Positions 52,595-60,580 of a stretch of DNA of 64,000 nt are shown one piece after another. A model generated the notes under the pieces. It worked only from the letters and a program-made list of their open reading frames with translations, was not told where the DNA came from and ran no database searches. Position numbers and translations under genes: made by a program. Origin of the DNA: Ectothiorhodospiraceae bacterium (GTDB lineage Bacteria > Pseudomonadota > Gammaproteobacteria > Nitrococcales > Halorhodospiraceae); NCBI GenBank assembly GCA_003552625.1, contig PUNM01000139.1, positions 1 to 64,000 on the forward strand. The letters run 5' to 3'. How positions within the stretch are numbered: the stretch's first letter is position 1; each line of letters opens with the position of its first letter.

Positions 52595-55066
52595 ATGGCA
52601 AGCGGCTACAACGAGAACAGCCGCCCGGCTCGAATCACCCGCAAGGACAGCGGAACGGGCCACCTCGGAACACGCACCGGTGCCACGACCTGGCTAAGCG
52701 CGCTGGATGCGCTCCAGACCCCGATTTTCGTCCACGACGCAGATCACCGCATCCTGGAGGCAAATCGCGCCTACTGCGAGCGGGCTGGCCTACCTCCGCA
52801 CCGGATCGTCGGGCGTCCGTACTGGGAAGTATTCCCCCTGGGCGATGGCCCCTTACCCAGTTGTCGCGCCGGCGTGGAGCGGGCCCGGCATCCGGAGTCC
52901 GACGGCGTCGGGTCGGACACGGGCGAAGCCCTCGATACCGTCACCCTGGACAACGGGCAGACCTACCTATCCCGGGCCTTTGTCATCCCCGACGAACACG
53001 GCGAGTACGGCCACTCGGTCCATATTGTCGAGGAGATCACAGAGCGACTGCGCGCTGAACGTGCCCGCAGTGCCGGCGAGTGCGCCCTGCGCGAGCGTGA
53101 AGAGCAGCTGCAGCAGGTGTTCCTGAGCATGACCGAAGGGGTGCTGGTCGTCGACGACGCCGGCAGCGTGCAGTACGCCAACCCCGCAGTCGCCGAACTG
53201 TTCGCCCGGTCGGCGGAGGCTTTGCGCGGTGAGGCCCTTGGCCTGCCGATCGGGGGGCCTGATGCGCAGGAGATCGAGCTCCATCCGGCGCGGGGTCTAC
53301 CGCGTACCGTGGAGATGCGCGTCCGCCCCATTCATTGGGGAGGCAACCAAGCCCACCTGGTGAACCTGCGCGACATCACCGAGCGCAAGCGCGTCGAGTC
53401 GGAGTTGCGCCGCGCCGCCATCGTCTTCGAAGAGGCCCGTGAGGGGATTCTCGTCACTGACGCTGATCAGCGCATCGTGGCAGTCAACCCCGCCTTTACG
53501 GAGATGACCGGCTACCCGGAATCGGAGGTCCTCGACCGAACTCCGCGCATACTGCGCTCCGGGCTCCACGATGAGGCCTTCTACCAGTCCATGTGGCAAA
53601 GTCTCCACGAGCGTGGCTTCTGGACCGGCGAAGTGTGGAATCGTTGCCGGGACGGCACCACCTTCGCCAGCCTTGCCAACATCCGCGCCGTCGTTGATGG
53701 CGATGGCCGCATCACGCACTACCTCTCCGTGCTGGCCGACATCTCAAGAATCAAGGAGTACCAGAGCCAGCTTGAGCGCATTCTCCACTCGGATCCGCTC
53801 ACCGGGCTACCCAACCGCCTGCTCTTTCACGATCGGCTCGAGCAGGCCCTCCTCGCCACGGTGCAGCACACCGGCCTGCTTGCCGTCCTCTCGCTCGATC
53901 TCAACGATTTGAAGACGATCAACTTCAGTCTCGGCCACCACGTCGGCGACGCCATTCTGCAGCAGTTCGGCCAGCGCTTGAGCCGCACCCTGCGCCCGGA
54001 GGATACCGTGGCCCGGCTCGGCGGCGACGAGTTCGGCATCTTGATGCCCGGGGTCTCGGACGCCAACGAGGTCACCACGATCCTCGAGCAGCTGCGCCAT
54101 GAGTTCGATCAGCCGTTCCGCATCGGCGATCGCGGCATTCCGATGAGCGCCAGCATTGGCGTGAGCCTCTTCCCGCAACAGCAGGGCGAAGCCGGCGAAC
54201 TCTTCCAGCAGGCGAATGCCGCCATGCACGAGGCAAAGCGGGAGGGGGTCGCTTACCGCTTTTTCAGTGAGGAGCTGACGGCTCAGGCCCGGGAGCGGGT
54301 GCAGTTGGGCAGCGATCTGCGCGAGGCGCTCAAGGAGAACGCTCTTACCGTTCACTTCCAACCCCAGGTGGATTTGGAACGGAGGACATGGATTGGCTGT
54401 GAAGCCCTTATCCGCTGGCACCACCCGTGCCAGGGCTGGATCCCGCCCGACCGTTTCATTCCGGTGGCCGAGCGCATTGGCCTGATCATCCCGCTCGGGG
54501 ACTGGGTTCTGGAACAGGCCTGCCAACAGGGCCGGGCATGGCTGGACGCCGGCTACGAGATCGGTCGTATCGGCGTAAACTTTGCCGCCCCGGAAATCGC
54601 TGCCCCCGACCTGGAAGCGAAAATCCTCGCCATCCTGGCCCGGACCGGGCTCCCCGCGGAACGCCTGGAGGTGGAAATCACCGAGAGCCTGCTCGTCGAT
54701 CCCGACGCAGTGGTCGTCGAGCGGCTTCAGCGCTTGCGCCGACACGGGATCACCGTAGCTATCGATGACTTCGGCACCGGCTACTCGGCGCTGAGCTACC
54801 TGCGCGATCTGCCCGTGGACCGTCTCAAGATCGACCGCTCCTTCATTGATCCCCTACCCCTACCCGAGGACGAGCGGGTCCGCACGATCACCGGGGCCAT
54901 CGTTCACTTGGGAGCCAACCTAGGGTTCGACGTCATCGCCGAGGGCATCGAGACCGCAGCCCAGTCCCGGACGCTGAGGGCCATGGGGTGCCAGCAGGGC
55001 CAAGGCTACCACTACGCGCGTCCGGCGCCGGCGGACCGGCTCGCCCCGCCCCGCATCGGGCGGTAA
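52595..55066 (+). CDS. PAS-GGDEF-EAL dual-domain c-di-GMP protein
   Basis: 823 residues, cytosolic. Three PAS modules (about 35-150, 165-270, 272-390). The GGDEF domain has DPLTGLPNRLLF and GGDEF near 473, with RPED five residues before it as I-site. The EAL domain (about 555-815) has EALIRWHH, the paired Asp in IDDFGTGYSALSYL, and VIAEGIETAAQ. Both catalytic motifs look intact, so the protein could make and break c-di-GMP, with PAS input deciding the balance. ATG at 52595. An EAL gene stands convergent downstream, 65 nt away. Confidence 0.94.
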   Translation: MASGYNENSRPARITRKDSGTGHLGTRTGATTWLSALDALQTPIFVHDADHRILEANRAYCERAGLPPHRIVGRPYWEVFPLGDGPLPSCRAGVERARHPESDGVGSDTGEALDTVTLDNGQTYLSRAFVIPDEHGEYGHSVHIVEEITERLRAERARSAGECALREREEQLQQVFLSMTEGVLVVDDAGSVQYANPAVAELFARSAEALRGEALGLPIGGPDAQEIELHPARGLPRTVEMRVRPIHWGGNQAHLVNLRDITERKRVESELRRAAIVFEEAREGILVTDADQRIVAVNPAFTEMTGYPESEVLDRTPRILRSGLHDEAFYQSMWQSLHERGFWTGEVWNRCRDGTTFASLANIRAVVDGDGRITHYLSVLADISRIKEYQSQLERILHSDPLTGLPNRLLFHDRLEQALLATVQHTGLLAVLSLDLNDLKTINFSLGHHVGDAILQQFGQRLSRTLRPEDTVARLGGDEFGILMPGVSDANEVTTILEQLRHEFDQPFRIGDRGIPMSASIGVSLFPQQQGEAGELFQQANAAMHEAKREGVAYRFFSEELTAQARERVQLGSDLREALKENALTVHFQPQVDLERRTWIGCEALIRWHHPCQGWIPPDRFIPVAERIGLIIPLGDWVLEQACQQGRAWLDAGYEIGRIGVNFAAPEIAAPDLEAKILAILARTGLPAERLEVEITESLLVDPDAVVVERLQRLRRHGITVAIDDFGTGYSALSYLRDLPVDRLKIDRSFIDPLPLPEDERVRTITGAIVHLGANLGFDVIAEGIETAAQSRTLRAMGCQQGQGYHYARPAPADRLAPPRIGR

Positions 55067-55131: not shown

Positions 55132-56214
55132 TTAACGGCACTCCAACGCCGGAGGCGGGTGCGCAGGCCGAGCGAAGTAAAACCCCTGGAGAAGATCGGC
55201 GCCGGCTTCCCGCAGCCACTGGACCTCCTCGGCCTCTTCCACACCCTCGCCGATACTCGTAACGCCCAGATTTCGGGCCATGCTTAGAATGGCCTCCACA
55301 ATGGTCCCCTGGGCCGGATTATTGTGCACATTGCGGACCAGATCCCGGTCGAGCTTAATGAAGTCCGGCTCCAGATCCTTGAGCAGATTCAGCGAGCCGT
55401 ACCCTGCTCCGAGATCGTCCAAGGCGATGCGGAAGCCACCCTGCCGGTACTCATCGACGATGTGGCGCAGGTGTGCGTGGTCACTGATCGCCTCACTCTC
55501 CACCACCTCAAAAACGACCTGCTCCGGGTCGATGCCGAGCTTCTCCACCGCGCCCACCGTGGTGCGCAGGCAGAACTCCGGATCGTAAATCGCCGTGGGC
55601 CGGAAGTTGATAAACAGGTTCGCACGGACACCGAGCCGATGGCTCTCTCGAATCGCCGCGACGCGGGCCATTCGGTCCAGATGAAACTCCAGGTCGGCTA
55701 CCTCGGCCGTGCGGAACAACCGCCCTGGCGGGATCTGCGTCCCGTCGTCCGCGTAGCCGCGGAGCAGACACTCGTAGCCGTAGACCTGCTCGGACGCCTG
55801 AGCCTGGACGATCGGCTGGTAGTGGATCTGTACCTGCTCCCGCTCGATAACCCGGAGCAGCCAGTCGTGCTCAGCCCGGGCGGTCCAGACCGCCAGCGGC
55901 CGGGCGTCGAGCAACGTGCCGATATCCGGTACACCACCCCCCTCCAGAAACACCGCCGCTGCCGCGGCGAGTTCCGGCTCACTCATCAACGGCTCGAGCG
56001 CGCGCAGCAGAGGCCTCAGTTGAGCCGCTCCCACCGCCACGCCCATCACACCGTCGTGCGGAAAGGTAACGGACCAGCCCTGTTCACTGAGCCGGACGTA
56101 CACCCGATCCCGGGTGTGCCGCAGTGGTGGTGCTAGATAGAAGACCCCGGCCTTGTCACTAAGACCCGGTAGCTCCGGGCTGCCGGGGCAAATGGTTGGT
56201 ACTTCTTGGCTCAT
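55132..56214 (-). CDS. EAL-domain c-di-GMP phosphodiesterase
   Basis: 360 residues. N-terminal ~115 residues form an unrecognised domain with VFYLAPPLRHTRDRVYV and an Ala-rich helix. The EAL domain (about 125-355) reads YECLLRGY in place of EALLR, then NFRPTAIYDP, FEVVESEAISD, ALDDLGAGYGSLN, DFIKLDRDLV, SIGEGVEEAEE and LQGFYFARP. All metal- and base-contacting positions (E, N, E, DD, K, E, Q) seem kept although the first motif is ECL. Hydrolysis of c-di-GMP to pGpG is therefore likely. ATG at 56214; a longer reading to 56694 would run across the start of the divergent gene. No clear ribosome site. Confidence 0.9.
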   Translation of the reverse strand: MSQEVPTICPGSPELPGLSDKAGVFYLAPPLRHTRDRVYVRLSEQGWSVTFPHDGVMGVAVGAAQLRPLLRALEPLMSEPELAAAAAVFLEGGGVPDIGTLLDARPLAVWTARAEHDWLLRVIEREQVQIHYQPIVQAQASEQVYGYECLLRGYADDGTQIPPGRLFRTAEVADLEFHLDRMARVAAIRESHRLGVRANLFINFRPTAIYDPEFCLRTTVGAVEKLGIDPEQVVFEVVESEAISDHAHLRHIVDEYRQGGFRIALDDLGAGYGSLNLLKDLEPDFIKLDRDLVRNVHNNPAQGTIVEAILSMARNLGVTSIGEGVEEAEEVQWLREAGADLLQGFYFARPAHPPPALECR

Positions 56215-56400
56215 AACGATGGTGACCGCACTCCATGTATCCTGTCTGCGGGTAGCCGCATCCTGCGGCCTTCGTACGCACGGCGGGGACCCGAGATCTG
56301 AGTGCGTACCTTCGCGGAACTGCTCGGCAGCGCCCAGAATGGCGCAGTTTGACACACCCCAACCCGTTCCAACCACCTCCAATGGCAAAGGATGGATGCG

Positions 56401-59010
56401 ATGAGCCGACCTCCCGCTGTCTCGACCGGTATCGCGGGGCTCGACCGCGTGCTCGACGGACTGCGCCTCGGGGATAACGTGGTCTGGCGACTGGAGGAGC
56501 TGGACGACTACCGCGACCTCCTCCAGCCGTTCGTGGCCACCGCACAAGGCGAAGGGCGGCAGATCATCTATCTGCGCTATGGCCAGCATCCGCCTTTGCT
56601 CTCTGAAGCCGACGGAGTCCGCGTGGAGGTCCTCGATGCGCGCGGCGGCTTCGAGGCCTTCACCAGTCGGGTCTACCAGCTGATCAACGACCACGGCCGG
56701 GGCGCCTTCTACGTCTGCGACTGCCTGACCGATCTACTCCAGGCCTGGACCACCGACGCGATGGTCGGCAGCTTTTTCCGGGTGGTCTGCCCGCAACTCT
56801 ATGAACTGGACACAGTCGCCTACTTTGCCCTGCATCCGCACAGCCACGCCCATGCAACCCTTGCGCGGATCCGCGAAACGACCCAGGTTCTGCTCGATGT
56901 CCGCCGGGTGGATCGCGAAATGCATGTGCAGCCGGTGAAGGTCTGGCAGCGCCACTCGCCGACAATGTTCCTGCCGCACCGGGTTCGCGGCGAGCGCTTC
57001 TTACCGGTGGTGGACAGCAGCGACGCAACCCGCCTGCAGGACGAGCTAGAGCGCCGTCACCCGGAAGCGAGCCAGCGCCGTCTTCTCGACTACTGGGACC
57101 GTCTCTTTCTCACCGCCGCCGATTGCCGCCAGCACCCCGCTGACGATCCGGAACGCCAAGCTGTCCGAGCGGAGCTGCTCGAGGCCCTGATCGGCCGTGA
57201 TGACCGGATACTGGCCCTGGCCAAGCGCTATCTGGATCTGGACGACCTGCTCGCCATCGGTGCGCGCATGGTCGGTAGCGGCTTCATCGGCGGGAAGGCA
57301 GCCGGAATGCTCCTCGCCCGCGCGATCCTGCAGCAGGAGGACCCTGACACCTGGCAGGAAGCACTCGAGCCCCACGACTCCTACTACCTCGGCTCCGACG
57401 TCTTCTACGCTTTTATCGTGCATAACGGCTGGTGGCCACTGCTCATGCGCCAACGCACCGAGGCCGGCTACTTCTCGGCCGGCCAGGCGCTGCGCGAGGC
57501 CATACCGGATGGGGCGATGCCGCCGGAGGTCCGGCCGGAGCTGGAGCGCATGCTCGACCACTTCGGCCAGTATCCGATACTCGTTCGCTCCAGCAGCCTC
57601 CTGGAAGACGGCTTCGGCAACGCTTTCGCCGGTAAGTACGACAGTGTCTTCTGCACCAACCAGGGCAACCCGGAGGCGCGGCTTGACGCGCTCGAGGACG
57701 CGATCCGCCAGGTCTTCGCCTCCACCTTCAGCGAAGACGCTCTGGTCTATCGCCGCCAGCGCGGTATCGACCGACTGGAAGAGCCAATGGCCCTCCTCCT
57801 CCAGCGCGTCAACGGCCGGTATCACGGCCCGCTCTACATGCCCGATGCCGCTGGCGTGGGCGTTTCGGTCAATCCGTTCGTCTGGGACGCAAGCCTCGAC
57901 CCGGGCGCCGGCATGTTGCGACTGGTGATGGGCCTCGGGACCCGGGCTGTGGATCGGATCGGTACGGATCACGCCTGTGTTGCAGCGCTTGATCAGCCCC
58001 TCCGCCGCCCTTTCCAGGACCGGGACGCGCTCTACCGCTACTCCCAGCACCACGTCGATTGTCTGGACCTCGAGGCCGGCTGCCTGACCGCCTATGCGCT
58101 CCGCGAACTTACCGCCCGCGCGGACGATCTGGCTCTGGAGGCGCTGGGCGAGCTGGATCGCGCGGCCACCGCGCGATCCCGCGAACTTGGCGATCCGACG
58201 CCGATTTGGCGGCTCACCTTCGAGCCCCTGCTGCGCAACCCCGCACTTATTGATCGTGCCCACCGCTTGCTCAAGACCCTGGAGAGGGCCTACGGCCACC
58301 CGGTGGATGTGGAGTTCACCCTCCACCGTGCCAACGAGCCGACCCCCACGCTCAACCTGGTCCAGTGCCGGCCCCTTCCGGCCCGGGGTGACGGCTCCGG
58401 CGCACCACTACCCGCATCCATCGAGGACGGCGCGCTGCTGCTCGAGTGCGGGGGGCACTTCATGGGCGGCAACCTCGATCTGCGTATCGCCCACGTGGTT
58501 TGGGTCGATCCTCAGGCCTACGCCGCCCTGCCGCGTAGGGCGAAGCAGGAAGTCGCCACGCTGGTAGGGCGGATCACCCGGGCACTGGCCGAGGAAGAGC
58601 CGGGCCGAATTCTCCTGCTCGGCCCCGGGCGCTGGGGAACCAGCACCCCGGAGCTGGGCGTGCCGGTTCGCTTCGCTGACATCAGTCGCGTCTCTGTACT
58701 GGGCGAGATTGCCAGCCTCGGCGACGGGATTGCCCCCGACCTCTCCTTCGGATCCCACTTTTTCCAGGACCTGATCGAGACCGGCATCGCTTATGTCGCC
58801 GTACTCCCGGACCACCCGGGCACCCGCTACCGGCCGGAGTGGCTCCAGAGCGGAGCCCGCACAGACAGCGACTGGCCCCAGCGGCTGAGCGAGGACCCGG
58901 GGCTCGCGGCGGTGGTCCACCACCTGCGGCTCGGCCCCGAGGAGCTGCGCCTGGCCAGCGACATCCAGGCTCAGCGCCTGGTCGCCTACACCCCTTGCGC
59001 CACGTCGTGA
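56401..59010 (+). CDS. Degenerate KaiC-like domain fused to PEP-synthase/PPDK-type ATP-grasp domain, function unknown
   Basis: 869 residues. The first ~230 resemble KaiC/RadA ATPases: STGIAGLDRVLDGLRLGDNV at the start and FYVCDCLTDLLQAW where Walker B belongs, but no P-loop (GxxGxGK[ST]) is present, so ATP binding is probably lost. The middle (about 285-655) matches the ATP-grasp half of pyruvate,phosphate dikinase / PEP synthase: GGKAAGMLLA, PILVRSSSLLEDGFGNAFAG, and VEFTLHRANEP then LVQCRPLP. The swivelling His domain and the PEP barrel are absent. A last domain (about 655-800) has LLLGPGRWGTSTPELGVPV and SFGSHFFQDLIETGIAY. Reaction unknown. AAGGA 8 nt upstream supports the ATG at 56401 rather than 56392. 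Confidence 0.85.
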   Translation: MSRPPAVSTGIAGLDRVLDGLRLGDNVVWRLEELDDYRDLLQPFVATAQGEGRQIIYLRYGQHPPLLSEADGVRVEVLDARGGFEAFTSRVYQLINDHGRGAFYVCDCLTDLLQAWTTDAMVGSFFRVVCPQLYELDTVAYFALHPHSHAHATLARIRETTQVLLDVRRVDREMHVQPVKVWQRHSPTMFLPHRVRGERFLPVVDSSDATRLQDELERRHPEASQRRLLDYWDRLFLTAADCRQHPADDPERQAVRAELLEALIGRDDRILALAKRYLDLDDLLAIGARMVGSGFIGGKAAGMLLARAILQQEDPDTWQEALEPHDSYYLGSDVFYAFIVHNGWWPLLMRQRTEAGYFSAGQALREAIPDGAMPPEVRPELERMLDHFGQYPILVRSSSLLEDGFGNAFAGKYDSVFCTNQGNPEARLDALEDAIRQVFASTFSEDALVYRRQRGIDRLEEPMALLLQRVNGRYHGPLYMPDAAGVGVSVNPFVWDASLDPGAGMLRLVMGLGTRAVDRIGTDHACVAALDQPLRRPFQDRDALYRYSQHHVDCLDLEAGCLTAYALRELTARADDLALEALGELDRAATARSRELGDPTPIWRLTFEPLLRNPALIDRAHRLLKTLERAYGHPVDVEFTLHRANEPTPTLNLVQCRPLPARGDGSGAPLPASIEDGALLLECGGHFMGGNLDLRIAHVVWVDPQAYAALPRRAKQEVATLVGRITRALAEEEPGRILLLGPGRWGTSTPELGVPVRFADISRVSVLGEIASLGDGIAPDLSFGSHFFQDLIETGIAYVAVLPDHPGTRYRPEWLQSGARTDSDWPQRLSEDPGLAAVVHHLRLGPEELRLASDIQAQRLVAYTPCATS

Positions 59011-59037: not shown

Positions 59038-60580
<1,543 letters not shown>

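Follow-up and report, generated by a model that had tools for sequence, protein, structure and literature searches.

PPDK_N domains are phosphoryl-transfer domains, and several systems that contain them can be compared with the locus analyzed here. The closest is VadK of Mycobacterium tuberculosis (Rv1127c), a truncated PPDK that lacks the PEP barrel and acts as a histidine kinase autophosphorylated on a histidine; its gene lies beside prpC and prpD, and VadK binds their products and restrains flux (PMC13400623). PPDK-derived regulatory phosphotransferases are already known, and what would be new in the family described below is the C-terminal domain and the partner enzyme.

The window, that is, the whole analyzed stretch of 64,000 nucleotides, encodes a protein that resembles VadK in several respects. 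In both proteins a domain containing a key histidine comes after the ATP-grasp domain, the PEP/pyruvate barrel is absent, and the gene is adjacent to that of a metabolic enzyme. VadK binds and regulates the enzymes encoded next to it, whereas for the window family the relationship is known from gene position (61 of 95 loci). The differences are as follows: (i) VadK retains a recognizable PPDK swivel, in which the autophosphorylated histidine resides, whereas the C-terminal domain of the window protein is unrelated to it at the profile level, and the key histidine, H789, belongs to a domain of an unrecognized type; (ii) VadK targets the methylcitrate cycle, and the candidate target here is glutamate dehydrogenase (GDH); and (iii) no KaiC-like or receiver-like input module has been described for VadK.

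The gene occupies positions 56392..59010 (+) and encodes a protein of 872 amino acids that combines a P-loop-less KaiC-like domain, a PPDK_N ATP-grasp domain, and a novel C-terminal domain, as delineated by the reading frame, Pfam, and AlphaFold. The start at 56401 given in the initial annotation is an in-frame ATG, but the frame extends to an earlier ATG at 56392, making 56401 the second; both are possible starts. The only Pfam match of the protein is PPDK_N (E 5.9e-45). In NCBIfam, it produces matches to PEP synthase that are all below threshold, no equivalog names any of five further family members scanned, and an annotated member from Parabacteroides is called merely 'PEP/pyruvate-binding domain-containing protein'. 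The AlphaFold model of the whole protein, based on a 71-row alignment, has a mean pLDDT of 89 and a pTM of 0.90. Its best Foldseek matches in the PDB are rifampin phosphotransferase (RPH; 5hv1-5hv3, E 5e-13) and HpeI (9goj, 1e-8), both through the ATP-grasp domain. RPH differs from the window protein by its substrate domain and recognizable His swivel, and HpeI by its use of a partner subunit.

The N-terminal domain (residues ~8-205; 56413..57006, +) has the RecA/KaiC fold, as indicated by Foldseek matches to KaiC (1e-8), RecA (5e-8), and FlaH (2.5e-7, TMt 0.65). Similarity to these proteins comprises the fold and a Walker-B-like strand, YVxD, which is retained in the 29 KaiC-type rows of the alignment. 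The difference lies in the Walker A motif: it was found in none of the 29 rows, which carry an invariant GDNVV instead (residues 27-31 in the window protein). The pattern GxxxxGK[ST] was also not found within the N-terminal 280 residues of approximately 70 sampled members.

The PPDK_N ATP-grasp domain spans residues 298-667 (57283..58392, +), and its match to PF01326 is close to full length (profile positions 3-314 of 328). Residues K302, R399, E405, D639, E641, Q658, and R660 all coincide with those of the PEP synthase from the same genome, so that all ATP/Mg residues align, and they are invariant or nearly so among 71 relatives. The domain is intact, with each catalytic residue that was checked against PEP synthase retained, and it looks active. 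The PEP synthase used for comparison is a separate, canonical, and intact enzyme (L135, contig C155); hence, the window protein is not the PEP synthase of the cell. It differs from PEP synthase and PPDK by the lack of both the PEP-utilizers swivel profile and the barrel, and by the extra N-terminal and novel C-terminal domains.

The C-terminal domain (residues ~680-866; 58429..58989, +), modelled alone, yields a small alpha/beta domain with a pLDDT of 90, within the ~200 residues that follow the ATP-grasp domain. It has no Pfam family across 70 scanned members, no significant sequence match in the PDB, and no significant Foldseek match in the PDB either. The top Foldseek matches, to CD38, have E 0.07 and TM 0.25 and are not significant, and a CD38-like fold was rejected. 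The domain contains the motif GPGRWG (residues 744-749; 58621..58638, +), in which G746 and R747 are invariant, the invariant E772 (58705..58707, +), and the motif SFGSHFFQ (residues 785-792; 58744..58767, +) with the invariant H789 (58756-58758), a candidate phospho-acceptor. Residues R747, E772, S785, G787, and H789 are present in all 71 aligned relatives, including paralogs with only ~22-25% identity.

In the succession of its strands and helices, and in having the histidine where a helix begins, this domain is reminiscent of the PPDK swivel domain. Moreover, SFGSHFFQDLIETGI resembles the PEP-utilizer motif GGxTSHAAIVARELGI, with the His, the Glu at +7, and the Ile at +10 in register and with the same strand/helix order. 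A disguised His swivel was considered on these grounds and rejected. The phospho-His swivel PF00391 had no Pfam match in 70 members; hhalign of the C-terminal domain against the PEP-synthase swivels, in both local and global modes, gave 0.5%, with a swivel profile that is shallow (Neff ~2); and no PEP-utilizer fold was present among the best 50 Foldseek matches in the PDB. That the C-terminal domain is homologous to the His swivel is an unproven idea, which these comparisons do not support. Judged by its sequence, the domain is new and, at the profile level, unrelated to the known swivel. The PEP/pyruvate TIM barrel likewise has no Pfam match, and only ~200 residues are available after the ATP-grasp domain.

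These observations agree with the domain reading proposed in the initial annotation: a KaiC/RadA-type start without Walker A, a full PPDK/PEP-synthase nucleotide domain, and a C-terminal domain with the GPGRWG and SFGSHFFQ motifs. Its statement that the swivel and the PEP/pyruvate barrel are missing holds at the level of profiles, and with neither profile present the canonical PEP-synthase reaction cannot run, as had been claimed. Searches for an intact Walker A or a His swivel, either of which would have contradicted that reading, detected neither.

In terms of sequence, the core formed by the ATP-grasp and C-terminal domains constitutes a widespread uncharacterized family and not a lone oddity. 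Relatives were found in Gammaproteobacteria, Desulfobacterota, Omnitrophota, Planctomycetota, Deferribacterales, Firmicutes, Chloroflexota, Myxococcota, Spirochaetes, Bacteroidota, and other lineages. Systematic genome draws revealed the family in 62 of 247 genomes from the phylum around a Desulfobacteraceae member, 10/46 from the Bdellovibrio-type phylum, 17/201 from Chloroflexota, 10/247 from the class around a Bacteroidales member, and 5/274 from the class of the window. The core is constant, and the N-terminal module varies: it can be P-loop-less KaiC-like, receiver-like (PF00072), another short module, or absent. Some members additionally possess a C-terminal nucleotidyltransferase-like domain. 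A constant catalytic core with interchangeable inputs is the usual appearance of a signalling enzyme, which suggests such a role here. In three loci (L270:7022-10096, L272:5306-9601, and L180:6197-9124), the region ahead of the ATP-grasp domain holds a weak match to DUF5752 together with a single receiver-like domain or a pair of them.

The first clustering of gene neighbourhoods produced one dominant cluster of neighbours, consisting of homologs of the window gene 59038..60405 (-). This gene encodes an NADP-specific GDH (NF006929, 767 bits) and is the convergent neighbour of the family gene across a gap of ~30 bp. To avoid selection bias, 95 loci were then taken from the systematic genome draws, and their surroundings were compared. 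In 61 of the 95 loci, no more than 2 kb separate the family gene from a GDH gene, whereas position alone predicts ~0.5 such loci. By group, such proximity is observed in 10/12 loci of gamma relatives, 2/4 of other gamma, 6/10 of the Bdellovibrio type, 32/41 of Desulfobacterota, 7/10 of Bacteroidia, and 4/18 of Chloroflexota. As a control, no GDH gene was found near PEP synthase genes in 30 loci. In the two gamma relatives without adjacent GDH (G012 and G031), it is encoded on the same contig ~8-12 kb away. Association is also seen at the level of gene content: among the 40 nearest genomes, a full-length GDH is present in 13/13 with the family versus 12/27 without it (Fisher 4e-4).

Each of the four possible orientations is represented among the pairs; on the family tree, loci that keep an adjacent GDH have been rearranged at least 15 times, and the reading frames of some pairs overlap (-6, -16, and -21 bp). 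The partner itself belongs to either of two diverged GDH subfamilies, the window type or one ~30% identical to it. Given the many arrangements and the two subfamilies, ancient synteny alone cannot explain the pairing, and selection has presumably kept or remade it. Examples from Bacteroidota include Parabacteroides distasonis, where the annotated gdhA is divergent from the family gene at 196 bp, and Phocaeicola massiliensis, where the distance is ~220 bp. Where GDH is absent or more distant, glutamate synthase (or its parts) and the nitrogen regulator NrpR recur as neighbours, and NtrC-like neighbours are also present near family genes. Overall, the family is strongly linked to GDH and very probably shares a process with it, namely ammonia assimilation, although adjacency gives no direction.

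GDH as a partner was absent from the initial annotation. That annotation would have been refuted by neighbourhoods lacking any recurring partner, but GDH recurs very strongly. The two candidate partners that it had named do not. A conserved stand-alone His-domain protein does not recur, as neighbourhood clustering contained no recurrent small neighbour, and an EAL gene is present within 3 kb in just 7 loci out of 95, mostly close relatives of the window. One further recurring cluster of reading frames is the antisense frame of GDH, an artefact of the simple gene caller used. A role in anti-phage defence was dismissed, as PADLOC gave no match. No paper in the literature searched links the family with GDH.

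Taken together, the intact ATP-grasp domain, the domain with its invariant histidine, the interchangeable inputs, and the metabolic enzyme encoded next door point to an ATP-dependent regulator of GDH. Our preferred reading, to which we assign a probability of about 0.52, is that the window protein is a signal-responsive, VadK-like regulator of this kind; the regulation, its chemistry, the acceptor role of H789, and action on GDH itself are all inferred from the above features. The constant core would be an ATP-dependent phosphoryl-transfer engine, composed of the PPDK-type ATP-grasp domain and the C-terminal domain with R747, E772, and H789. The signal input would come from the exchangeable N-terminal module, which is P-loop-less KaiC-like in the window protein and receiver-like or other elsewhere. 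ATP, the signal, or both would cause a phosphate to be loaded, with H789 as the most likely site, and the loaded protein would bind or phosphorylate the neighbouring GDH and so adjust its activity, in the manner of VadK acting on enzymes of the methylcitrate cycle. Separate steps of this scheme differ in strength. That the protein is a regulator rather than a pathway enzyme can be proposed with moderate confidence; a phospho-H789 intermediate and direct phosphorylation of GDH are weakly indicated. An external protein is a plausible phosphoryl acceptor, as the initial annotation had suggested, and the family also has an invariant histidine of its own. The family as a whole probably consists of dedicated regulators of GDH and, more broadly, of ammonia assimilation. 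A similar arrangement is provided by AceK, the isocitrate dehydrogenase kinase/phosphatase, whose gene lies close to that of the dehydrogenase it specifically regulates; the fold and chemistry of AceK are unrelated.

The alternative that retains the most weight, while still unlikely, is that the protein catalyzes a pathway step, with the core phosphorylating or pyrophosphorylating a low-molecular-weight compound in the GDH/GOGAT pathway such as glutamate, 2-oxoglutarate, or a nucleotide. Retention of all ATP-grasp catalytic residues is consistent with this, the invariant R/W/E/S/H set of the C-terminal domain could form an active site, and most characterized PPDK_N enzymes act on small molecules, including PEP synthase, rifampin phosphotransferase (PMC4844700), and HpeHI (PMC12167813). 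However, exchangeable sensor-like N-terminal modules, in particular receiver-like ones, suit a regulator better, and such a step would not be obligatory, as 12 of the 27 relatives that lack the family still carry GDH.

Less probable again is a factor for GDH activation or assembly, which would bind GDH and promote formation of the active hexamer, using ATP for a conformational change and not for covalent modification. The tight pairing of the two genes would be natural for such a factor. In Bacteroides, according to the title of a 1996 paper, genes downstream of gdhA reportedly affect GDH activity in trans, which also suits this explanation. On the other hand, phosphoryl transfer is the general function of PPDK_N domains, and many bacteria without the family gene fold GDH unaided.

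A pure nucleotide or metabolite sensor seems improbable; the protein would then be a catalytically dead scaffold whose target is GDH or GOGAT/NrpR regulation. This is compatible with the P-loop-less RecA-like domain, already a non-catalytic relic, and with the occurrence of NrpR and NtrC-like neighbours, but the active site of the ATP-grasp domain is invariant and not decayed. Finally, the c-di-GMP component partnered with an EAL gene that the divergent EAL protein of the window (55132-56214, -; likely start ATG 56214) and the nearby PAS-GGDEF-EAL protein (52595-55066, +) might suggest is largely refuted by the 7/95 count and highly improbable. Both genes are ordinary c-di-GMP genes local to the neighbourhood of this lineage. 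Of the signalling role with a c-di-GMP link proposed initially, the regulatory part is likely and the c-di-GMP part is lost.

GDH is one of the central points at which ammonia enters carbon metabolism. If several phyla, including gut Bacteroidota such as Parabacteroides distasonis and Phocaeicola massiliensis, do encode a dedicated ATP-dependent regulator beside this enzyme, it would add a previously unrecognized layer of nitrogen control. It would also extend the precedent of VadK, implying that PPDK-derived modules have been repeatedly recruited to regulate metabolic enzymes; in this case, the C-terminal domain is new and the inputs can be exchanged. A stronger version, which we regard as tentative and rather doubtful, is that the family represents a new class of kinases in which a PPDK-derived ATP-grasp domain is combined with a non-swivel phospho-acceptor domain and swappable sensors and is dedicated to GDH. 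If true, this class would allow ammonia assimilation to be switched post-translationally across many phyla, gut Bacteroidota among them.

Reversible inactivation of the GDH of Bacteroides fragilis in vivo was reported in the 1980s. The unexplained gene or genes that act in trans from downstream of gdhA in Bacteroides thetaiotaomicron could belong to the family; this lead comes from other Bacteroidia, as in two sampled genomes (L308 and L311) the family gene is located directly 3' of a GDH gene. In the same two loci (L308:5359-14941 and L311:5580-13766), the family gene lies between two GDH paralogs that are ~68% identical.

Several other arrangements were observed. In four loci from Bacteroidota, Spirochaetes, and Phycisphaerae (L082, L089, L091, and L092), family paralogs are arranged in tandem right behind GDH. 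The second paralog has ~1060 amino acids in several cases and ends with a nucleotidyltransferase-like domain (PF01909/PF18765), which brings to mind nitrogen control of the adenylylation type. Two loci from Dehalococcoidia (L039:8634-12781 and L041:8631-12779) contain, in the same direction, the family gene, a gene for a glutamate-synthase-domain protein, an NrpR-type regulator, and GDH.

Most members from Chloroflexota adjoin not GDH but DnaN and a deoxynucleoside kinase, which counts against the preferred reading. The DnaN-like neighbour was found in 18 loci in the clustering, with the family gene directly following the sliding-clamp gene (L048, L049, L054, L059, L069, L070, L072, L087, and L275-L284); a deoxynucleoside kinase gene often follows, and an adjacent GDH is usually absent. 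These loci may mark a second role of the family. One Chloroflexota locus (L283:7038-11730) contains the family gene in two overlapping tandem copies.
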